Source of the DNA: Akkermansia massiliensis
GTDB taxonomy: Bacteria > Verrucomicrobiota > Verrucomicrobiia > Verrucomicrobiales > Akkermansiaceae
Length of the DNA: 64,000 nt
NCBI RefSeq assembly: GCF_023516715.1
Contig: NZ_JAMGSI010000001.1
Location: forward strand, 1,302,001 to 1,366,000
Direction: 5' to 3'
Shown: one piece after another, positions 40,681-51,861 of the stretch
Layout of the letters: each line of letters opens with the position of its first letter
Position numbering within the stretch: the first letter of the stretch is position 1
Position numbers and translations under genes: made by a program
Notes under the pieces: model-generated
What the model was told of the DNA's origin: nothing
Database searches by the model: none
Seen by the model: the letters and a program-made list of their open reading frames with translations, nothing else

Positions 40681-43600
40681 ATGGAAACCACTCCCCCACT
40701 GCCTTCCGGATTTAATATCAACGGCTACCTTATCCAGTCACTGAAGCAGACGGATGCCCTCTGCCATGTCTATTACGCGTCGGACGCCAACCACGTGCAA
40801 TACCTGGTCCGTGAATTCTGTCCGCAGGGCCTTGCCGTGCGCGATCCGGAAAGCGGAAAACTGCGTTATCCGGAAACTACGGACATCGAACAGGAAGTCC
40901 TTCCGCTGAAAAACGATTTTGAAGCCCAGTTCCGCACCGGCTCCCTGGGGGAAATTCCCGCCCTGGGCACCATGTACCTGGTTTATGCCCTGCCCGGCGT
41001 TCATCCCGCCGCGGAGCAGTCCCCGCTTCCGGCTACTCCCGTGGAGCCCCTCCAGCGCGACCAGAGAACCCTGGCCACTCCCGCAGCAGGAGCGCCCCCC
41101 GTCCATGCGGTACCCCTTTCCCAGCCCCGGAAAAAGAAAAGCTCCGCCGGCATCTGGATCCTTATCCTGATTCTGCTGGGAGGCGCCTGCGCCGCTTATT
41201 ACTACACGCAGAAGCCTGCGGAGGACTCCGCCGCCCCGCAGGAACCGTCCAGTACGCAGCCCAAAAAAGAGAAGAAGGAAGCACCCAAACCGGAAAAGAA
41301 AGCCGCCCTGCCTGCTGCGGAAGTGGAAGACCCCTTTGAACAGGAAAGCGCCGCCGCGGAGGCCCCCCCGGGTGGAGCAGCGGAACAGCCGGAAGAAACG
41401 CCGTCCGCCAGTGCCCCTGAGGAACAGGACGAAGACGGCTCCGCCACTCCCGCGGAAGAACCTGCTCCCGAACCTGAACAGCCTGCCGGAGAGGCGGACG
41501 CTCCGGCAGACGACGCCACGTCTGCGGAACAGCCGGAACCGGAAACTCCCACCAAACAGAAGGATGCTCCGGCCCTGGCGGCACAAGCTGCCGTCAAACC
41601 CGCCTCCCCCGGCCGTCCGCGCGGAAAAGCCGCCAGGCAGACCACCAACATGGGGGACGTCAACGCCTACGTGAAAAAATTCGCCAAGGCCATGACGCTG
41701 AACCAGTGGAGGAAGCAGTACGCCAACCTGTACACGAGCTGGTTCGGCAACTCCGAGGAAGTGGCCAAGGGCTGGATCACCACCTTCGGCCCTCTGGGCT
41801 TCCGCGCCCGCGGCCTGGACGCCTCCTGGCCGGACACGAACTTCCGGGGCTTTTTCCCAAAAACCCTGCTGGACCCCAATGGGGAACCCGTGGCGAACCT
41901 CTACATGGTCACCCAGGTGATTGAAGGCTCCCCTGCTGAAAAATACGTGAAGGAGGGCGACCTGATCCTGGGCATTGACGGCCAGCCCTTCAAGACGGCC
42001 CAAAGCCTGGATGTGCTTTACGGTCCCTACCAGCACCAGGACAGGCGCGGCCTGGACATGCACGCGGGCCTGCTGGTGGACAAGGCGGAAGGCGCCGGAA
42101 AAATCACCCTGAACCTCATTCCTGCGGAAAATGTGGAGAAAATCCAGGGCATCCAGCCGCTCTGGAAGGAAGTCTTCCGGGAGGAACGGGCCAAAAAGCC
42201 CGTCTCCCTCTCCATTCCGGTGAAGGGAGGCCAGCAGGTGCGCCTTCATGTGGATGACGGCGGCAACGGCATCGGCAGCGACGGCTTCGAATGGTCGGAC
42301 CTGAGGCTGGAAGGCCCCGGCGGCCCCGTTCCGCTGACCAAGCTCAAGCCCCTGCAATACAGCGTGGGCTACGGCGCGGCCAAATATGACCCCGAGCGCA
42401 AGGTGTGGCTGGCTCACGCCGTCTCCTCCCTGGTCTTTGACATTCCCAAGGGAGACTGGAAGCTGAAAGGCACCGGAACGCCCGGAGGGGCGGCCTCCGT
42501 AGGTGTGGCTGTCCATGTGGGCGGTTCCGCCACCCTGCCGGACTCCGTGAAGAAATACGTGAAAAACGTCACGTTCAAGATTCCCCAGCTGGGAAGCTAC
42601 GCTCTCGGCTTCCCGAAAAACTGCGCCAAGAGCAAGGCCGTGGTCCACATGATGAGCGAATGGCTGGCGGCCCAGCAGCGCGAGGACGGCTCCTGGGAAC
42701 GCCCGGGCGGCTACTGCGGCAACCACTACGACACGGGCTGGGCCGGGCTGGCCCTGATGGCCACGGGCAACCCGAAATATGATCCCGTCATTAAAAAGGC
42801 GGCTCAGTACATCGCCTTCTCCGGCTCCCAGTGCTGGTGGGCCGTCCCCCAGGCCTCCGCGGGCATCTTCCTGTGCGAATACTGGCTGCGCTACCGGGAC
42901 AACTCCGTTCTGCCGGCCATCCGCAACGGCGTGCAGCGCATGAAAAACGAGGTTCTTTACGGGGACTTCGTCACCGGCCACGGCATCCACCCCGGCTATG
43001 CGGGCACGGGCGTCAGCATCGGCGGCTCCCACATGTGCCTGTTCCTGGCGCTGGCCAGCAAGACCCCGGCGCGCACGGAAGACGACGTGCTGGACAAGAT
43101 GATGGACCACGCCCAGTCCATCTGCCCCACCGGCATGGGCCCGTACGGCCGCATGACGGAGGCCTTCACCTTTGAACCCAACCGCGAATGCGGGGGCACC
43201 TACTCCGGCCGCCACGGCCCGTACTACATCGCCTCCCTCATCTGCGGGGGACCGGAACTCTACACTAAAAACAGCCGCATCATGTACGGGGAAGGCCCCA
43301 TCGGCGGCTGCGACCAGGGCCACTCCTCCGAGACGCTCTCCATCATGTGGGCCCTTCCCGCCTACTGGCGGACGAACCCGGAAGTCTACTACAAGAACAT
43401 GGAGGCGTTCCGCTGGAAGCTGACGCTCCTGCGCCCGTTTGACGGCGGCATGATGCAAAACCCCAACCGCCTGGAACTGATGACGGCAGACCCGGTCATC
43501 GGCACCTACATCCGCACCAGCGTCTGGATCACGGCGCTGTGCGCGGAACGCCAGAACCTGGCGATCACGGGCAAGCCGGAATTCCAGGCCAAATCCTTCC

Positions 43601-45063
43601 GGAAGGTTCCCCCCATCATTGACACGGAATCCCGCTTCCTGAACACCTATGTGCGCAACTGGTCCATGGTCAGCGCCGCGCTGGGCGCCAAGGCTCCCGG
43701 CTCCCTGAAATCCGCCATCCGGGAACTGAAAAACATCCCCGTGGAACAGGGCTGCCGCTTCAAGCTCATGAGCGTCGTCAATGCCCGGGCCCTTCCCGTC
43801 GCCAAGGCCATCATGGCCATTCCCGGCCTGGACCAGCTCACCAAGGCCACCTGTGCGGAAATGATCCTGGGCATGGACGTGCGCATCTTCTTTGAACCCA
43901 AGCGGAAGGACGACAAGCCCCAGCCCGGGGAATACTCCCTGAACGTGGACGTCCAGCAGCCGCTGGGGGGCCGCGCCCTGGGCCTTCACCGCGACAAGGA
44001 ACTGGAAGGAAAGGCCAATTCCGCCTACAAGTACGACTTTGCCGGCACCGTCCAATTCAGTGACGCCACCACCTTCTCCCCCATGGAAACCATTTCCTGG
44101 ACCCCCGACTCCAAATTCGGCGGCCAGTGGAACGTGTACTCCTACAAGAAGGAGCTCAGCGGCCCCACCCAGCCGGGCGTGCAGAAAATGAGCGCCAAAA
44201 TCAAATGGCGCGTGAACGACCTGGACGTGGAATATGACCGCCCCATCGCCGTAGGCGGCTTTGAAGTGGGCTGCGGGGAAAAAGCCCACCCGGTCACCAA
44301 CTGCAACCACCTGTGGGTGCCGGGCATCCTGATCCGCGACCACGGCAACTGGGGCTGCTCCTTCCACCTGCCGGACGGCACCTACATCTCCGCAGCCTCC
44401 CAGGGCAACCAGATAGAGGTGTACGATGAAACCGACAAGAAGAAGGAGAAAACCTGGGTCTCCCCGAACGACTCTTGCCTGACGCAAGGCTCCCGCTGCC
44501 TGTTCCGCGTTTCCACGGACTGGCACGGCCTGGAATGCCGCGTGCGAGAACTGAAGCTGCTGGGCAGCGCCACGGAGGAAGTCACGGACTACAAGCTGAA
44601 AGCCTCCACCGGAGGCCATGTGGACACCGCCAAGCTGCTGGACCGGGACGCCACCACCATCGAGGAACTGGACGCCTCCCCCACGGAAGACGATCCCCTG
44701 GTGCTGGAACTCTCCCTGAAAAACGCCGCCTCCCTGCGCGCCGTGGACATCAAGATTGAAAAGGGGTACAACCGCCTCGTCATTGAAGCCAACAAGGGCG
44801 GCAAGTGGATTCCCATCCACTGGGGTTCCCTGGGAGCCGCTACCGCCGGCGTCAGCGATGCGCAGAAAGCCATGTACGCCAATGAGCCAGAGGTGCTGCG
44901 CATGCTCCAGCTCCCCGGCAACGGCTTTATCAAGTGCATGAGGACGTTTGAGCCTATCACCACCAACAGGCTGCGCGTCAAGCTCTTCCAGAAGGGGGGC
45001 AAGGTCCGCCTGGCGGAACTGCACGTGTACAAGGCGGATTCCGCCAGAAACGTTGCGCGTTAA
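40681..45063 (+). CDS. Giant membrane protein with kinase N-lobe-like head, PDZ and toroid-like domains
   Basis: A 1460-residue protein. Residues 1-110 resemble only the N-lobe of a bacterial Ser/Thr kinase: FNINGYLIQSLKQ, then LVREFCPQGLAVRDPESGKL, ending at TMYLVYALPG where the kinase hinge would be. The Gly-rich loop is absent and the beta-3 Lys is Arg. One membrane helix follows (about 157-177), then a long acidic Pro/Glu-rich linker to about residue 325. The extracytoplasmic part has a PDZ-like domain (VIEGSPAEKYVKEGDLILGI, about 405-445), an alpha/alpha-toroid-like region (MSEWLAAQQREDGSWERPGG, about 655-1000) and a C-terminal discoidin-like end. ATG 40681 follows a promoter by 30 bases. 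Its role is unknown; envelope sensing or scaffold is a guess. Confidence 0.75.
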   Translation: METTPPLPSGFNINGYLIQSLKQTDALCHVYYASDANHVQYLVREFCPQGLAVRDPESGKLRYPETTDIEQEVLPLKNDFEAQFRTGSLGEIPALGTMYLVYALPGVHPAAEQSPLPATPVEPLQRDQRTLATPAAGAPPVHAVPLSQPRKKKSSAGIWILILILLGGACAAYYYTQKPAEDSAAPQEPSSTQPKKEKKEAPKPEKKAALPAAEVEDPFEQESAAAEAPPGGAAEQPEETPSASAPEEQDEDGSATPAEEPAPEPEQPAGEADAPADDATSAEQPEPETPTKQKDAPALAAQAAVKPASPGRPRGKAARQTTNMGDVNAYVKKFAKAMTLNQWRKQYANLYTSWFGNSEEVAKGWITTFGPLGFRARGLDASWPDTNFRGFFPKTLLDPNGEPVANLYMVTQVIEGSPAEKYVKEGDLILGIDGQPFKTAQSLDVLYGPYQHQDRRGLDMHAGLLVDKAEGAGKITLNLIPAENVEKIQGIQPLWKEVFREERAKKPVSLSIPVKGGQQVRLHVDDGGNGIGSDGFEWSDLRLEGPGGPVPLTKLKPLQYSVGYGAAKYDPERKVWLAHAVSSLVFDIPKGDWKLKGTGTPGGAASVGVAVHVGGSATLPDSVKKYVKNVTFKIPQLGSYALGFPKNCAKSKAVVHMMSEWLAAQQREDGSWERPGGYCGNHYDTGWAGLALMATGNPKYDPVIKKAAQYIAFSGSQCWWAVPQASAGIFLCEYWLRYRDNSVLPAIRNGVQRMKNEVLYGDFVTGHGIHPGYAGTGVSIGGSHMCLFLALASKTPARTEDDVLDKMMDHAQSICPTGMGPYGRMTEAFTFEPNRECGGTYSGRHGPYYIASLICGGPELYTKNSRIMYGEGPIGGCDQGHSSETLSIMWALPAYWRTNPEVYYKNMEAFRWKLTLLRPFDGGMMQNPNRLELMTADPVIGTYIRTSVWITALCAERQNLAITGKPEFQAKSFRKVPPIIDTESRFLNTYVRNWSMVSAALGAKAPGSLKSAIRELKNIPVEQGCRFKLMSVVNARALPVAKAIMAIPGLDQLTKATCAEMILGMDVRIFFEPKRKDDKPQPGEYSLNVDVQQPLGGRALGLHRDKELEGKANSAYKYDFAGTVQFSDATTFSPMETISWTPDSKFGGQWNVYSYKKELSGPTQPGVQKMSAKIKWRVNDLDVEYDRPIAVGGFEVGCGEKAHPVTNCNHLWVPGILIRDHGNWGCSFHLPDGTYISAASQGNQIEVYDETDKKKEKTWVSPNDSCLTQGSRCLFRVSTDWHGLECRVRELKLLGSATEEVTDYKLKASTGGHVDTAKLLDRDATTIEELDASPTEDDPLVLELSLKNAASLRAVDIKIEKGYNRLVIEANKGGKWIPIHWGSLGAATAGVSDAQKAMYANEPEVLRMLQLPGNGFIKCMRTFEPITTNRLRVKLFQKGGKVRLAELHVYKADSARNVAR

Positions 45064-45122
45064 CATTGGGCAGCCTTCCACAACCAACTTGCAATGACAA
45101 ACCAATCCTTGCCATAAAGAAA

Positions 45123-45188
45123 TCTTCACAGGGGCATGCCCCTGTGAAGAAAAGGGGCTCTACCTCTCCAGCGAGGAAAAGCCCCCTT
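45123..45188. repeat. Perfect 28-base palindrome followed by a second hairpin
   Basis: Bases 45123-45150 read identically on both strands (half-site TCTTCACAGGGGCA). A second stem follows at once: AGGGGCT (45153-45159) with AGCCCC (45180-45185), with an inner CCTC/GAGG. Neither is followed by a T-run on the plus strand. They lie between the giant membrane-protein gene and the GH16 gene and could be a factor-independent end structure or a protein-binding site. Confidence 0.6.
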
Positions 45189-45260
45189 ACACGATATTCG
45201 GGCTGCAGGCCCGGTTCTTGGCCATTGACGCCTCTTCCTCCTGTCCCACCCCTCCCTGTT

Positions 45261-46226
45261 ATGTCCATCAGAACAACGCTCCTTCTTCTTTTCCCCATCG
45301 TTTCCCTTGCCGGGCCGCCTGCCCTGGCGGCAACCCCGTGGGTCTCCGGCAAAGACTGGGAACTTGTTTTTGAAGACGACTTTGACGGCCCCTCCCTGAA
45401 TGCCCGCAACTGGAGCCGTATCGATTACGTAAACCATAACGCCCCGGATTGGCGCAAATACCAATCCCAGGACGAAAGCCTTGTGGAATTCCGGGAACAG
45501 GACGGCAATTCCGCCATGACCCTGTGGGGAAAATACGGAGACTACACCACCCAGACCAATCAGACCGCCCCAGCCCAGACCTATGCCTGCGGAGGAGTGT
45601 ACTCTCTGAAAACCTTCCAATTCCAATACGGCTACGTAGAAGTTCGCGCCAGATTCGATTGCGTGCAGGGCGTCTGGCCTGCTATCTGGATGATGCCCAA
45701 ATCCGACAGCATCGGATGGCCGGCAGGAGGGGAAATTGACATCATGGAACATTTGAATTACGAAGGACGTGTCTACCAGACGATCCACTGGTCTGAAAAC
45801 GGCGTTCCAAACCAAGACAAATCCCAGGGGGTCACCCCCGGCTGGAGCGACGGCGCTGAAAAAACAAACTGGCACACCTACGGAATGGAATGGACGGAAG
45901 AAGGCATCACCTTTTATGTGGACGGAAAGGAAACCGGCTCCTTTAAAAAGCCCAATAATGCAAACTGGCCTTTTGACAAAGACGGAAACGAATTTTACCT
46001 GATCATCGACCAGCAGATCGGAGGCAACTGGGTAGAAAATGCAGGGGTTAATAAAGGAATTGACCAGAATACGCTGGCCAACTCCGGAGCCGCGTTCGAC
46101 ATCGACTACGTCAAAGTCTATTCATCAAGCAAATACAACCACCTCGTGCCGGAACCGGCTACAGCCGCGCTGAGCCTGGTTGGAACGGCCATCCTGTTGA
46201 CTCGCCGCAAAAGGAGCAGACTTTAA
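45261..46226 (+). CDS. Secreted glycoside hydrolase family 16 enzyme with PEP-CTERM tail
   Basis: A 321-residue secreted enzyme. After a signal peptide (1-25, cut near ALAA) comes the GH16 jelly-roll: WELVFEDDFDGPSLNARNW, YGYVEVRARFDCVQGVWPAI and the catalytic motif GGEIDIMEH (nucleophile and acid/base Glu either side of Asp). The C-terminus is a PEP-CTERM signal: VPEP, a hydrophobic stretch (ATAALSLVGTAILL), then TRRKRSR, implying exosortase-type cell-surface sorting. GH16 enzymes cut beta-glucans or galactans, and some gut bacterial ones, including Akkermansia enzymes, are endo-acting mucin O-glycanases. Substrate cannot be fixed here. ATG 45261 is the start directly before the signal peptide. 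Confidence 0.9.
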   Translation: MSIRTTLLLLFPIVSLAGPPALAATPWVSGKDWELVFEDDFDGPSLNARNWSRIDYVNHNAPDWRKYQSQDESLVEFREQDGNSAMTLWGKYGDYTTQTNQTAPAQTYACGGVYSLKTFQFQYGYVEVRARFDCVQGVWPAIWMMPKSDSIGWPAGGEIDIMEHLNYEGRVYQTIHWSENGVPNQDKSQGVTPGWSDGAEKTNWHTYGMEWTEEGITFYVDGKETGSFKKPNNANWPFDKDGNEFYLIIDQQIGGNWVENAGVNKGIDQNTLANSGAAFDIDYVKVYSSSKYNHLVPEPATAALSLVGTAILLTRRKRSRL

Positions 46227-46315
46227 ACACTCCCTTCCTCCCCCTGTCACGGGGATAAAGCTCCCGGCTTCATTCCCGGCGCACTTTCGGCATAAGGCCG
46301 TCATCGGCATTCGCG

Positions 46316-47380
46316 TCAATACTTCTGAACCGGAGAGGAAGGCGACTCTTCATCCGCCTCCCCTTCCGCCAGGCGGCACAAGGCCTCCGCGCGGCGCAGG
46401 CAGGAATCCCACAGTCCTGCCTTTTCCGGGAACGGGAAGCACAGGGAATCGCTCAGCTTCTCCACCCGCTTGAAGGAATCATCCCGGTCATAGGCGTCCA
46501 GGCCTTCCAGGCGGGAAGCCACGCCGTCCAGCCAGGAGAGGGGGTCATGGCAAATCAGGGGAAGATCGCACCCGGCCTTCAGGGAAAGCAGGGCGGCTTC
46601 ATCCGGAGCATGCCGCGCCGCAATCGCCCCCATGCACAAATCATCCGTAAACACCACTCCCCGGAAGCCGAGCCTGTCCCGCAGAAGCCCCCTGATCACC
46701 CGTTCGGACAGGGTGGCGGGATAATCGGGATCAATCTGCGGCAGCATGATATGGGCGGACATGATGGAGGAAAGCTCCGGACACAGGGCCAGAAAGGGCA
46801 GCAGGTCCGTCTTGAACAACTCACGTTCATCCAGGTCAACCACGGGAAGGCTGAAATGGGGGTCCGCCTGGGCGCGCCCCATGCCGGGAAAATGCTTGCC
46901 GCAGCTTTGCACGCCGCCCCGGCGCAGGTTGGAGGAATAAACGCCTCCGCGCGAAATCACGTCCTGGGGATTGTCTCCCCAGCAGCGGCCGGGCAGCGCA
47001 TTGGCCGCGGACGGGTCATGGCAAATATCCAGTACCGGGGCAAAATTCAGGTTCACCCCCAGGTACCGGAGCGCCATCGCCGTCACCGCGCCCAGTTCCA
47101 CAATGCCGTTAAAACCGCCGCTCCGCGCCAGAGAAGCGGGAGAAGGCAAATTCAGGCCCAGGGAAGCGGTGCGCACAACCCTGCCCCCCTCCTGGTCCAC
47201 GGCAATGACGGGATGGTGGCGGCAGAGCTTCCGCAACGTTTCCGTCAGGCTGCGCACCTGCTCCACGGAATCCACATTCCGGGAAAACAGGATGAAGCCG
47301 GCCGGCTGCAAACGCAGGATGGCCGCCTCCTCTTCCGCGCCCACTTCATGGCCGCTTATGCCGATCAGGGCGGGGAGCAT
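46316..47380 (-). CDS. nagZ: Beta-N-acetylhexosaminidase, NagZ type (GH3)
   Basis: Removes N-acetylglucosamine from anhydromuropeptides in peptidoglycan recycling, or from other glycans. The 354-residue protein is a single-domain GH3 with LQPAGFILFSRNVDS, VIAVDQEGGRVVR, LNFAPVLDICHDPSA, the NagZ-type His-Asp pair in CGKHFPGMGRAQADPHFSLP, and the nucleophile Asp in VVFTDDLCMGAI. ATG 47380 opens 13 bases after pyrE, and an upstream extension would overlap pyrE. It has no clear signal peptide, so it is probably cytoplasmic, as is usual for NagZ. Confidence 0.9.
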   Translation of the reverse strand: MLPALIGISGHEVGAEEEAAILRLQPAGFILFSRNVDSVEQVRSLTETLRKLCRHHPVIAVDQEGGRVVRTASLGLNLPSPASLARSGGFNGIVELGAVTAMALRYLGVNLNFAPVLDICHDPSAANALPGRCWGDNPQDVISRGGVYSSNLRRGGVQSCGKHFPGMGRAQADPHFSLPVVDLDERELFKTDLLPFLALCPELSSIMSAHIMLPQIDPDYPATLSERVIRGLLRDRLGFRGVVFTDDLCMGAIAARHAPDEAALLSLKAGCDLPLICHDPLSWLDGVASRLEGLDAYDRDDSFKRVEKLSDSLCFPFPEKAGLWDSCLRRAEALCRLAEGEADEESPSSPVQKY

Positions 47381-47393
47381 GAACGGAAAAAAA

Positions 47394-47963
47394 TTATTTG
47401 CCCAGCAGGGACGTCCTGGTGTACAGGGGATAAACGGGAATGCCGCGTTCCTCAATCGCCTGGCGGCCGCCTTCCTCGCGGTCCAGCAGCACCAGGGCGG
47501 CGGCTACCTTGCCCCCTTCCGCCTCAATGGCGTCAATCGCCTTCAGGGTGGAGCCGCCCGTCGTAATGACGTCATCCACCACCACCACGGTATCCCCGGC
47601 CTGGAAATTGCCCTCAATGCGGCGTCCCCGGCCATGGTCCTTCGGCTCCTTGCGCACGGTAAACACCTGGAGCTTCTTTTCAGCCCCTTCCAGAGCGCTG
47701 GTCATGCCGACGGCCAGGGAAATGGGGTCTGCGCCCATGGTCATTCCGCCAATGGCCGCCACCTCCGGGAAACGGGGCAGAATCTCCTCCTGCACCAGCT
47801 TCCAGCCCAGCGCGCCCACCAGCGTGGCCCCCACGGGGTCCAGGGCGGTCATGCGGCAGTCCACATACAGGTCTGACACCTTGCCGGAAGCCAGCGTAAA
47901 GGTTCCCGTGCGCACGGATTTTTCCAGAAGAATGCTTTTCAGAAGGTCGTATTGTTCACTCAT
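47394..47963 (-). CDS. pyrE: Orotate phosphoribosyltransferase
   Basis: Makes orotidine 5'-phosphate from orotate and PRPP in pyrimidine synthesis. The 189-residue protein has LASGKVSDLYVDCRMTALDP, AIGGMTMGADPISLAVG, FTVRKEPKDHGRGRRIEG (the flexible loop with Lys and His) and the PRPP motif VVVVDDVITTGGST. ATG 47963 matches the family start SEQYDLLKSILLE. A long upstream extension is unlikely. The gene is first in a pyrE-nagZ unit with a good promoter immediately upstream. Confidence 0.94.
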   Translation of the reverse strand: MSEQYDLLKSILLEKSVRTGTFTLASGKVSDLYVDCRMTALDPVGATLVGALGWKLVQEEILPRFPEVAAIGGMTMGADPISLAVGMTSALEGAEKKLQVFTVRKEPKDHGRGRRIEGNFQAGDTVVVVDDVITTGGSTLKAIDAIEAEGGKVAAALVLLDREEGGRQAIEERGIPVYPLYTRTSLLGK

Positions 47964-47994
47964 GGAGATATGGATGGATGAGGTGGTTGCGCCG

Positions 47995-48023
47995 TGTATA
48001 ACAGATACCCCCGGAATAAGCAA
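47995..48023 (-). promoter_or_regulatory. Candidate promoter of pyrE-nagZ
   Basis: On the minus strand TTGCTT and TATACA are separated by 17 bases (plus-strand AAGCAA at 48018-48023 and TGTATA at 47995-48000). The pyrE ATG lies about 30 bases downstream. Confidence 0.5.
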
Positions 48024-48043
48024 CGGATAACAGCATGCAAATC

Positions 48044-48072
48044 TTGACAAAAGGGCGGACAGGCTCCATAAC
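48044..48072 (+). promoter_or_regulatory. Candidate promoter of the L,D-transpeptidase gene
   Basis: A perfect -35 box TTGACA (48044-48049) is followed 17 bases later by a weaker CATAAC (48067-48072). The first 11 bases, TTGACAAAAGG, recur exactly in the promoter at 48877. Confidence 0.4.
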
Positions 48073-48095
48073 CTGCCTGTCATTCTCCCGTTCCC

Positions 48096-48743
48096 ATGAA
48101 ACCCGGCATACTGGCATTAGCTTCTATCAGTTCCATTCTCGTTTCCTGCAATCCATATGGAAGGCCCCCCCTGTTTGATAAAATCGCCGGGAAAATCCAG
48201 GGCGCGTCCAGCCAGGACAGCTACCTGTCCGGCGTGGGCGCCACCTCCGGCGTGAACACGGACCTGCCGCCGGAAGCCCGCCTGGGCCAGGGATACTGGG
48301 ACCTGCCTTCGGGCATTCAGGGGGAAAAGCACATCATTATTGACCTCAAGCAGCAGAAAGTCTTCTACTACGTAGGGGCCACGCTGGTGGGCGTCTCTCC
48401 CATGTCCTCCGGCAAGGAAGGCTTCGGCACGCCCAGGGGAACCTACAAGATTATCCAGAAGGACGCCAACTACAAATCCGGCACGTACGGCGTTCTGCGC
48501 AGCAAATCCACCGGTGCCGTCGTCAACGGGGACTATAACGCCAGGGCCGGCGGCGCGCCCGCAGGAACCTACTTCGACCCCGCCCCCATGCCCTACTGGA
48601 TGCGGATTACGGGCGGCTACGGCATGCACGTGGGCTTTGTCACCGGATACCCGGTCAGCCACGGTTGCGTGCGTCTCCCGGCAGACATGGCCAAGACGTT
48701 CTTTGAACACACACCTCTCGGAACCAAGGTCACCATCCGCTAG
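48096..48743 (+). CDS. L,D-transpeptidase lipoprotein, YkuD family
   Basis: Probably cross-links peptidoglycan stems or attaches proteins to the wall in the periplasm. The 215-residue protein has a lipoprotein signal ending at Cys18 (ILVSC). The YkuD domain shows IIIDLKQQKVFYYVG, SSGKEGFGTPRGTYKI and the active-site block HVGFVTGYPVSHGCVRLP, with the catalytic Cys at about residue 191. It ends shortly after the domain. It has its own promoter and is divergent from pyrE. Confidence 0.92.
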   Translation: MKPGILALASISSILVSCNPYGRPPLFDKIAGKIQGASSQDSYLSGVGATSGVNTDLPPEARLGQGYWDLPSGIQGEKHIIIDLKQQKVFYYVGATLVGVSPMSSGKEGFGTPRGTYKIIQKDANYKSGTYGVLRSKSTGAVVNGDYNARAGGAPAGTYFDPAPMPYWMRITGGYGMHVGFVTGYPVSHGCVRLPADMAKTFFEHTPLGTKVTIR

Positions 48744-48756
48744 CCCTTCCCGGCGG

Positions 48757-48774
48757 CTCCCTGCTCGCAGGGAG
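48757..48774 (+). terminator. Hairpin after the L,D-transpeptidase gene
   Basis: CTCCCTGC and GCAGGGAG form a perfect 8-base-pair stem with a TC loop, 14 bases after the stop. It is followed by AAAAAGG, not by T, so it may be a stability or Rho-type end structure rather than a classical terminator. Confidence 0.3.
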
Positions 48775-48876
48775 AAAAAGGCCCTCTTCCGGCTTCCTTG
48801 AAACGAGGTTTTCCCCTTCTTCCAGACGGGTGCCCGCGCTATGCGGACGCCATGGCACAGCTTCCGCACTCCGGAA

Positions 48877-48906
48877 TTGACAAAAGGCTCCGGACCTCCT
48901 TAAATA
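48877..48906 (+). promoter_or_regulatory. Candidate promoter of the second N-lobe-like protein gene
   Basis: A perfect TTGACA (48877-48882) is followed after 18 bases by TAAATA (48901-48906), 28 bases before the ATG. It shares TTGACAAAAGG with the promoter at 48044. Confidence 0.5.
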
Positions 48907-48933
48907 AATGAGTCTTTGATCTTTTGATTCGTC

Positions 48934-51861
48934 ATGACAGTACCTCAAACCCCTGCCCTTCCGTCCCATTTCAACATAGGCGGCTATAGAATCACGGCGC
49001 TTGTAGAAAGCGGTCCGGATTATAACCTGTACCAGGCCATCTCCCCGGAAGGCCAGGCCGTCCTGATACGTGAATTCTGCCCCCAGGGCCTCGTCACCCG
49101 TGACCTGGCTACCGGGGAATTGTCCGCGGCCCCGGAAAACCGGGCTCAATTCTCCCAGGCGCAGGAAGCCTTTGAAACCCAGTACTCCGCCAATGCGGAA
49201 GGCAAGCTGAGGGGCTTCGGTACCGTGCTCTTCCTTTACCCGCTGGCACAGCCGCAGGCTCAAGCTCCGGCACAGCCCCAGCCGGCCGTTGCCCACGCCC
49301 AGGCCCTGCGCCCGGCCAAAAAGCCGCAGCAGCCCCAGCTCCGGAAGCCGGTAATCGGCGCCGTCACGCCCGGCGCGCCGCTGCCCAAGGTAAAGCGTTC
49401 CGGCGGCTTCCCCGTCATCACGGTCATCGTTACCGGAATGCTCGCCCTCTTCGGCTTCCTGGGCTACCAGATCCTCAAGGACAAAAAGGAACCCGTCGCC
49501 AAAACCGTGGCGCCCCCGGTAGTGGTTCCGCCCAAGCCCAAACCCAAGCCCGCTCCGCCCAAGCCGGAACCTGTGGTGGTTGCCCCGGAACCGGAACCCA
49601 TCGTCGTGGCGCCTGAACCGGAACCTGAGCCTGAGCCAGAACCGGTCGCGCCCGATCTTTCCCCCTCCCCGCAAGTCATCGCCATGGAAAAGGCGCTGCG
49701 GGAGGAAGCCATGGCCTCCAAGGGCAAATTTTCTGAAAAGCTTCTGGCTAAATACCCCCTTTACGCGGAAGCCTACGTGCGCGACTACGTGAAAAAGCGC
49801 GGCGGCACCTTCTCCCCGGACTTTGAAAAATGGCTGAAAAACACTAAGAACAACCGTGAAGTCTTCGCCATGTTCTTCCCGCCGGACCCCAGCGTCGCCA
49901 CCAATGTGGCCTTCATGATTGATGAACTGGGCCTGGAAATGACGGAAAAATACAACCAGCTCGTCCTGGCCTTTGCGGTGGGACGCCGCGAATTCGGCAT
50001 GGGCGCCTTCGACCTCACCCAGCAGGGCCGCTACATTGACGCCCTGGGCAAACTGAACGGCTTGAGGTCCTCCGGCGTCATGCCTCCGCCCGCGGACCTG
50101 TACTGCGCCGGCAAGCCCCCTGTGAACTGGTACGGAAACGCTCCGCGCACGGTGGATGAAGAATGCTACAAAAAGGTGGAAGCCTACCTGGACCGCAAGA
50201 AAATCACGCCCAAGCAGGCATGGATCAACAAATACCCCACGGTCTCGGAAATAGGGGACACCGCCATTACGGAAGGCAACCTGGCCGGCTTCCTGCACGA
50301 ATACCTGTACCGCCACGGCCAGCTGAGGCGCAAGAGGGACCCGTTCCCCACCCCGGTGGAATTCTTCACCTACCTGGTGGACAAATATGAAAACTGCAGC
50401 AAGCTGCGGGACGTGGACCACAAGCGCGTGGAATGGACCGGCGTGTCCCTGGAAGGAACGCCCTGGCCGGCCATGATGGCCCTCTCGGAAACGCGCCCCC
50501 TGCGGGAATGCGACAGCGTGTGGGAACGCTACATGGGCCAGCGCGGCCCGACGCGCCTGTGGCTGTACGGCCCCTACCGCATGGATGACGACAAGGAGCC
50601 GCCCATCCTGTTCAGCTTTGACCCTGATCCGGAATGGTCCCGGGAATCCAATGAACGCAAGCTTCATGAAGGCGGCGTTTGCGGCACCATGTCCCTCATC
50701 TCCCGCAACTCCCAGATTGCCCGCGGCATCCCCGCCGCCCCTGCCGGACAGCCCGGCCACGGCAACCTGATGACCACCAACTTCAACGGCAACGGCTGCT
50801 GGCTGAGCGTGGGCCAGAGCGTAGACACCCTGAAAGCCACCACGGGATTCTGGTACTTCCGGGACTCCAAGGCGCCGCGCACCGGGAATGCGGAATACCA
50901 GTCCGGACTGGCCCTGTCCATGAACATCGACTACGAGAAATTCATCGACAGCCGCTTCGCCATGAACATCTACAAGCTCGCGGGCGCGAACTCTTCCACG
51001 GAAGAGGCTCAAGACCCCTCCGGCACGCTGCCCAGGGAATTCACGCAGACCGCCATGAGAACCGTTCTCAAGGCCAACCCGTTCTACACGGAAGCCTGGT
51101 ACACGCTCTTCAAGCAGGCTCCCCAGGACCTCATGGGGGCCACCAAGATGGTGGATGAAGTACGTGAGGCCCTTCCGGACGGCATGGGCATCAGAAAGCT
51201 CTGGAAAACGCGCAAATACGTCTCTTCCGTAGGCCGCGGGGACAAAAACGGCAAGGAAATGCTGGCCAACCACGCCAAGGAATACGTCAATGTGCTCTGC
51301 TCCGTGATTCTGGAAAACGCCCTGAAGCAGGAACATGACTACAAGACCTTCCAGTGGGCGGACCTCATGTCCTGGCTCAAGTCCGAGTCCAAGCGCAACT
51401 CCTACCCGGAACCCCAGGCCGCCTACCAGATAGCCTATGCCAAGGCCCAGGGCACGGACAGGCTCAAGAGGACCGTGGACAGGGGCTTCAAGAAAGCCCT
51501 CAACTTCTACCGGGATGAAAACAATGCCCTGAACGCTCCCAAGGACGTGGATCAGGAGGAAATGTCCTTCTCCCTGGACGCCCTGTGCCTGGCCCTGCCC
51601 AAGGAGGAACTGATCCCCTGGATGAAAAACATGGTGGACACCTGCCCGGACGGGTTCAGGTACAAGCCCAAGAACAAGAAGGAAACGAAAATTCACCCCT
51701 TCTACAGTGCCCTGACGAAGAACTACATGTCCCTGGCCGACGGTACGGAAAAATCCCGCGTCAAGAAGGAGATGAAGGACTCTTCCGCCAGGATTCTGGA
51801 ACTCTCCCAGAACAAGAAGGGCGACGGGGAAGGAACCTCCGGACGCCGCCGGAGACGCTGA
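48934..51861 (+). CDS. Large membrane protein with kinase N-lobe-like head and transglutaminase-like core
   Basis: A 975-residue paralogue, in its head, of the protein at 40681. Residues 1-108 match a kinase N-lobe (FNIGGYRITALVESG, then VLIREFCPQGLVTRDLATGE, ending GTVLFLYPLA), again with no Gly-rich loop and Arg in place of the beta-3 Lys. A membrane helix lies at about 155-180, then a Pro/Glu repeat linker (KPKPKPAPPKPEP, EPEPEPEPEP) to about residue 245. The large C-terminal part has GGVCGTMSLISRNSQIARGI followed by GQPGHGNLM. That is the Cys (583) and His (609) pattern of transglutaminase-like domains in Planctomycetes/Verrucomicrobia proteins. Function unknown. It is followed 15 bases later by hemW. 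Confidence 0.75.
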   Translation: MTVPQTPALPSHFNIGGYRITALVESGPDYNLYQAISPEGQAVLIREFCPQGLVTRDLATGELSAAPENRAQFSQAQEAFETQYSANAEGKLRGFGTVLFLYPLAQPQAQAPAQPQPAVAHAQALRPAKKPQQPQLRKPVIGAVTPGAPLPKVKRSGGFPVITVIVTGMLALFGFLGYQILKDKKEPVAKTVAPPVVVPPKPKPKPAPPKPEPVVVAPEPEPIVVAPEPEPEPEPEPVAPDLSPSPQVIAMEKALREEAMASKGKFSEKLLAKYPLYAEAYVRDYVKKRGGTFSPDFEKWLKNTKNNREVFAMFFPPDPSVATNVAFMIDELGLEMTEKYNQLVLAFAVGRREFGMGAFDLTQQGRYIDALGKLNGLRSSGVMPPPADLYCAGKPPVNWYGNAPRTVDEECYKKVEAYLDRKKITPKQAWINKYPTVSEIGDTAITEGNLAGFLHEYLYRHGQLRRKRDPFPTPVEFFTYLVDKYENCSKLRDVDHKRVEWTGVSLEGTPWPAMMALSETRPLRECDSVWERYMGQRGPTRLWLYGPYRMDDDKEPPILFSFDPDPEWSRESNERKLHEGGVCGTMSLISRNSQIARGIPAAPAGQPGHGNLMTTNFNGNGCWLSVGQSVDTLKATTGFWYFRDSKAPRTGNAEYQSGLALSMNIDYEKFIDSRFAMNIYKLAGANSSTEEAQDPSGTLPREFTQTAMRTVLKANPFYTEAWYTLFKQAPQDLMGATKMVDEVREALPDGMGIRKLWKTRKYVSSVGRGDKNGKEMLANHAKEYVNVLCSVILENALKQEHDYKTFQWADLMSWLKSESKRNSYPEPQAAYQIAYAKAQGTDRLKRTVDRGFKKALNFYRDENNALNAPKDVDQEEMSFSLDALCLALPKEELIPWMKNMVDTCPDGFRYKPKNKKETKIHPFYSALTKNYMSLADGTEKSRVKKEMKDSSARILELSQNKKGDGEGTSGRRRRR

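Follow-up and report, generated by a model that had tools for sequence, protein, structure and literature searches.

The N-terminal heads of two large Akkermansia massiliensis proteins are, by structure prediction and profile comparison, the N-lobe of a protein kinase fold, which has lost its catalytic residues and is followed by a membrane helix in place of a C-lobe. Estimates of dN/dS indicate that selection keeps this half-kinase and, judging from the sequences, the same head is reused on two different outer parts. It probably serves as a docking plug on the cytosolic side of the membrane.

The two genes lie within the 64,000-nucleotide stretch that was analysed (the window; G000:C1:1302001-1366000) of a 3.28-Mb genome, and are open on the + strand: P0001 at 40681-45063 (1460 aa) and P0002 at 48934-51861 (975 aa). 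They share a layout, in which a head of about 106 residues is joined through a short linker of about 50 residues to a single membrane helix, with a large remainder beyond it. The heads are 37% identical to each other; the rest of the two proteins is unlike. The original prediction, which was made from the sequence alone, had described two giant proteins that share an N-terminal pattern and also have a Pro/Glu-rich linker and a membrane helix, and all of these are found where it put them. The proteins are large, but "giant" is a generous term for them. The motif REFCPQGL..RD is likewise present, but its ending was given too narrowly and should read (S/T)G.L, with ESG in P0001 and ATG in P0002.

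In P0001, the head (residues 1-106; 40681..40998, + strand) was assigned by sequence, alignment, a shuffle test, and profile-profile comparison. The membrane helix (about residues 154-175; 41140..41205, +), which has RKKK just before it, was located by sequence and a hydropathy scan, the Pro/Glu-rich linker (about residues 176-320; 41206..41640, +) by sequence, and the outer part (41641..45060, +) by a Pfam search. In P0002, the head (residues 1-106; 48934..49251, +) was assigned by an AlphaFold model and structure searches, and the helix (residues 161-181; 49414..49476, +) by the full-length model and a hydropathy scan. The Pro/Glu-rich linker (about residues 182-245; 49477..49668, +) was again read from the sequence, and the outer part with its conserved Cys583 and His609 in GGVCG..GQPGH (49669..51858, +) was defined by a Pfam search and alignments.

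A kinase N-lobe without a C-lobe

The modelling and fold comparison that the original prediction had proposed point to a kinase N-lobe and not to an unrelated fold. An AlphaFold model of the head, for which 12 aligned heads were supplied (the 2 of the window and 10 from Akkermansia or Akkermansiaceae loci), reached a pLDDT of 89.5 and a pTM of 0.82, and its strands and helices follow the order b1-b2-b3-hairpin-helix C-b4-b5. The top match of this model among solved structures in Foldseek was PpkA (E 8.7e-5, TMq 0.80), and all of the 50 matches listed were kinases or kinase domains. With VIA, the head was superposed on residues 11-123 of PpkA over 101/107 residues (Z 14.1, rmsd 2.2 A); the runners-up were CLK and SRPK kinases, at Z 9.5 and below. 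These matches to kinases rule out an unrelated fold.

Is the relationship also visible in the sequences? Compared as profiles by hhalign, the heads match kinase N-lobes with a probability of 98.0 and E 2.3e-13 over 94 columns; the kinase profile held 16 N-lobes, 15 intact and one dead, 14 of them from the same genus. For a shuffle test, a model was built from 21 full kinases, 19 of them members of the genus and two of another family, with the heads excluded; scored against it, five of six heads exceeded the best of their own 500 shuffles. The sixth, the second copy in genome G262, scored 2.8 bits, below its shuffle best of 4.9. The shuffle test and the profile-profile match together rule out a chance motif. 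A search of PDB sequences with the head profile is insufficient by itself to settle homology, since PpkA appears at E 0.24 beside unrelated chains; the N-lobe profile of full kinases finds PpkA as its best match, at E 8.5e-25. Searches of Pfam and NCBIfam with single heads (12 rows each) returned matches to unrelated families alone, at E 0.039 or worse. Kinase surveys built on these collections would therefore miss the heads.

What is left of the catalytic apparatus? In the hhalign alignment, the column of the catalytic Lys coincides with R46 of the head and that of the helix-C Glu with Q83. The predicted Arg at the Lys site is thus found, with His in its place in one G262 copy, and both window heads carry Gln in the Glu column. 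The Gly-rich loop is missing, as had been claimed, except that P0002 retains a single Gly of the former loop (ESGPDY).

The C-lobe is missing as well. All 22 distinct heads have a membrane helix 35-52 residues downstream, and no HRD- or DFG-like motif occurs in the 220 residues that follow any of them. A 23rd row of this survey, L091, is a full-length dead kinase and was flagged by its degenerate HRD-like motif. Pkinase is found at six places in the genome, none of them inside the window or near P0001 or P0002. These two results rule out a C-lobe close by, which the original prediction had named as a finding that would overturn it. Compared with an active Hanks-type kinase of the PpkA kind, the head has strands b1-b5 and helix C, but neither the catalytic residues nor the C-lobe; a whole-domain pseudokinase keeps the two-lobed fold with lost motifs, whereas the head has one lobe only. 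Alignment and model both indicate that the catalytic parts have been lost.

Occurrence and phylogeny of the heads

How widespread is the half-kinase? Among 387 genomes of the phylum, strong matches to the head (E <= 0.001) were found in 13 of the 23 sampled genomes of the genus and in none of the 364 others. The genus contains more genomes than these 23, at least 40 having been scanned with the kinase N-lobe profile. A family exists, therefore, but it is narrower than had been suggested. It comprises 25 loci in the genus, 11 of the P0001 kind and 14 of the P0002 kind. G262 has two near each other, and the P0001 copy in the draft genome G283 is broken across two frames. Weaker matches within the genus, where opened, proved to be full kinases or pseudokinases.

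Beyond the genus, weak matches to the head profile (E <= 0.1) occur in 11/262 genomes of the class. Of the five that were opened, two are full kinases (L078 and L081) and two look like chance (L084 and L089); L080 begins like a phosphatase and continues into a kinase-like stretch that is cut off by its frame. Nine further candidate half-kinases, mostly short frames, were taken from the matches listed in 40 genus genomes, and none is another example: L195, L198, and L199 run off the contig end, L196 has a C-lobe in another frame, and HRD is present in L197 and L200-L203.

In a tree, nine representative heads form one clade (support 100/100) that is separate from the 24 N-lobes of kinases or pseudokinases included. 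The P0001 heads nest among the P0002 heads. This placement fits a P0002-like protein as the donor of the head and a P0001-like protein as its recipient, a transfer that can only be suggested because the root of the tree is uncertain. The closest neighbour of the heads is the dead kinase L091; support is modest, at 86/85 for the rest, on the basis of 114 short columns, and the bootstrap was unsettled.

Other kinases of the genus show signs of decay or expansion. The same genome contains a dead kinase, L059 (G000:C1:16876-17292, - strand), in which HGG replaces HRD, and which also carries a membrane helix, a Pro/Ala-rich linker, and an F5/8 type C domain. Among the matches listed, the genus genome G203 has 38 to the kinase N-lobe profile, against 2-10 in each of the 39 others scanned; this is a large kinase expansion, and some of its copies are degenerate (L092, L097).

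Outer parts, selection, and the role of the head

Which side of the membrane does the head face? In P0001 copies, there are four Lys or Arg residues before the helix and 0-2 after it, a pattern that fits a cytosolic head. In those P0002 copies that are close relatives of the one in the window, the counts are 2-4 before and mostly 3-4 after, with three before and four after in most of them, and favour neither side. We infer a cytosolic head from its kinase origin and from the enzyme-like outer parts.

The outer parts differ, as had been predicted. In P0001, Pfam finds a weak PDZ-like match (residues 409-444), a weak NPCBM-like match (504-543), and DUF6288 (PF19805; 624-965) at 126 bits, well above the Pfam cut-off of 26.3, followed by an untyped C-terminal part. 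For P0002, Pfam returns nothing at E <= 1, and beyond the head and helix its full-length model is of poor quality (mean pLDDT 49.4). A transglutaminase-like Cys-His fold is a possible lead for its outer part; the Cys and His are invariant in 14/14 aligned rows of this segment, where the model is poor, and no transglutaminase match to the Cys/His part was found in Pfam or PDB. The segment, GGVCG..G(Q/E)PGH (P0002 residues 580-612), is present in 14 aligned proteins from several genera, which besides P0002 are L012, L090, L091, L095, L170, L172, L174, L175, L177, L178, L180, L181, and L184. It has no Pfam domain of its own (some rows give a weak TPR match) and no significant PDB match. The stretch directly after P0001, at 45066-46226, encodes a glycoside hydrolase of the GH16 type, whose tail weakly resembles PEP-CTERM, below the Pfam cut-off.

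Relatives of the outer parts have other starts. In other genera, the head of P0001 is replaced, by eye, by a bare helix in L165 and by a signal-peptide-like start in L166. A zinc ribbon and a membrane helix stand in its place in relatives from two genera: L167 in G009 (Zn_ribbon_4, E 4.2e-8) and L168 in G030 (E 1e-5, below the Pfam cut-off). The P0002 outer part has relatives, L171-L173, that likewise lack a kinase-like domain at their start. These different starts and headless relatives imply that modules can be exchanged in the position ahead of the helix, the half-kinase being one that is reused.

Two proteins of the same genus resemble P0002 in their layout, their kind of N-lobe, and the Cys/His signature of the outer part. 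L095 (G262:C1:2918000-2924000) is a full kinase that retains HRD and DFG (Pkinase 135 bits), and L091 (G100:C4:13500-19500) is a full-length dead kinase with a degenerate C-lobe (Pkinase 63 bits); in each, a helix and a GGVCG..GQPGH outer part follow. Both look like receptor kinases with an enzyme-like outer domain, and the C-terminal end of L095 has an F5/8-like domain just below the Pfam cut-off. Unlike P0002, they have a C-lobe, and their outer segments are only 17% (L095) and 20% (L091) identical to that of P0002. L095, L091, and P0002 suggested a straight series of erosion on one outer part, from active kinase to dead kinase to N-lobe only, but the outer parts are so distantly alike that this idea is unsupported.

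What might the head do? In the reading that we regard as probable, a dead PpkA-like N-lobe without a C-lobe, mounted on a helix and an outer part, acts as a cytosolic plug that docks a partner, for example kinases or envelope machinery. Binding would use the helix C side, the N-lobe surface through which some Hanks-type kinases form dimers, and which a lone N-lobe could retain after losing the catalytic half; alternatively, contact could be made by the face that in a complete kinase packs against the C-lobe. Partners would most likely be those membrane kinases of the genus itself that have the same kind of N-lobe. One of these candidates, 349 aa long, ends in a membrane helix and lacks an outer sensor. 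Orthologues of it (at 52-100% identity and E <= 1e-60) occur in just those 13 of the 23 genomes that carry heads, and in 0/10 others at this threshold. Further kinases, 42-45% like it, pass E <= 1e-60 in those same 13 genomes, so that shared ancestry may explain the co-occurrence as well. Descent of the P0001 helix from this kinase is unsupported: the best other match in the genome to the helix and its flank has E 0.06, and is not that kinase. A selected free-standing kinase N-lobe would show half of a very common fold serving as a portable interaction module and, in a much-studied gut commensal such as Akkermansia, it would tie envelope proteins to kinases in a way that can be tested.

It is possible, if somewhat unlikely, that the head has no kinase partner and is a cap that orients the helix or tethers the protein to general membrane machinery. 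The zinc ribbons that occupy the same position in L167 and L168 speak for such a role, as they imply a slot that takes different small domains. However, a bare helix appears to suffice in L165, and the conservation of the REFCPQG segment across the 12 aligned heads suggests a specific surface.

A more elaborate version of docking, which we consider doubtful, is that receptor kinases are split in trans, with N-lobe-only sensor proteins plugging into sensorless membrane kinases, N-lobe to N-lobe. If so, one kinase could read several interchangeable outer sensors.

Pairwise dN/dS was estimated by the Nei-Gojobori method for the first ~600 residues of each protein. For P0001 (11 rows; 55 pairs, 48 of them usable for the helix and outer part), the median is lowest in the head (0.076) among five regions, the others being the linkers (0.302 and 0.306), the helix (0.230), and the outer part (0.110). 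For P0002, with G253, G100, and the two copies of G262 excluded (10/14 rows; 45 pairs, of which 44 served for the helix), the medians are 0.217 for the head, 0.168 and 0.119 for the linkers, 0.079 for the helix, and 0.069 for the outer part. The P0002 head evolves faster than every other region compared; by these estimates it is under selection, yet it is the least-kept region of its protein.

Could the head be a passive leftover of a kinase gene broken long ago, tolerated before the membrane anchor? Its place as the fastest-changing region of P0002 would suit a vestige, as would the loss of every catalytic residue and the headless relatives of both outer parts. Nevertheless, this is quite improbable given the low medians in both sets of pairs, the retention of the head in 13 genomes, and the 15 positions that are invariant across the 12 aligned heads (L9, P10, F13, G17, Y18, Y33, R46, E47, F48, P50, R56, F80, G96, T97, and Y102), some of which deviate in the two G262 copies, which lie outside that alignment. 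That the head and a separate C-lobe protein rebuild an active kinase has nothing in its favour beyond the fold and only a negligible chance of being right, as other residues stand in for the Lys and the helix-C Glu, there is no Gly-rich loop, and 0/6 Pkinase places in the genome lie near P0001 or P0002.

Relation to known kinases and pseudokinases

The closest structural match to the head, the N-terminal kinase domain of PpkA (PDB 5hnv, 5x1r), has a C-lobe; the head lacks this lobe together with the Gly-rich loop, the catalytic Lys, and the helix-C Glu. The literature searches found no N-lobe-only membrane protein among the matches listed, most subscription papers being outside their scope, and the accessible text of a 2025 review of bacterial pseudokinase families (PMC12599244) does not contain "C-lobe", "truncat", or "Verrucomicrobi".

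Precedents for N-lobe docking come from dimers. According to two reports, the MviN pseudokinase forms a back-to-back dimer with family-specific N-lobe constraints at the interface (PMC12599244), and the kinase PknB forms a back-to-back dimer for which an allosteric role is proposed (PMC6333020). MviN and other ActPs3 bacterial pseudokinases are dead, like the head, and the MviN dimer offers a model for its docking; as described there, they have a whole pseudokinase domain, in contrast to the N-lobe alone.

In layout, although with the orientation of our proteins inferred, the nearest parallel is EssB/YukC, the membrane pseudokinase of type VII secretion, which is reported to have a dead N-terminal kinase-like domain, one helix, and an outer domain, and to act as a non-catalytic membrane scaffold (PMC3694306, PMC12599244). 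EssB-N, as described there, has both an N-lobe and a C-lobe, separated by a cleft, whereas the heads of P0001 and P0002 consist of the N-lobe only (PMC3694306, PMC12599244). The half-kinase proteins thus appear to be an N-lobe-only variant of membrane pseudokinases, the nearest known examples of which keep both lobes.
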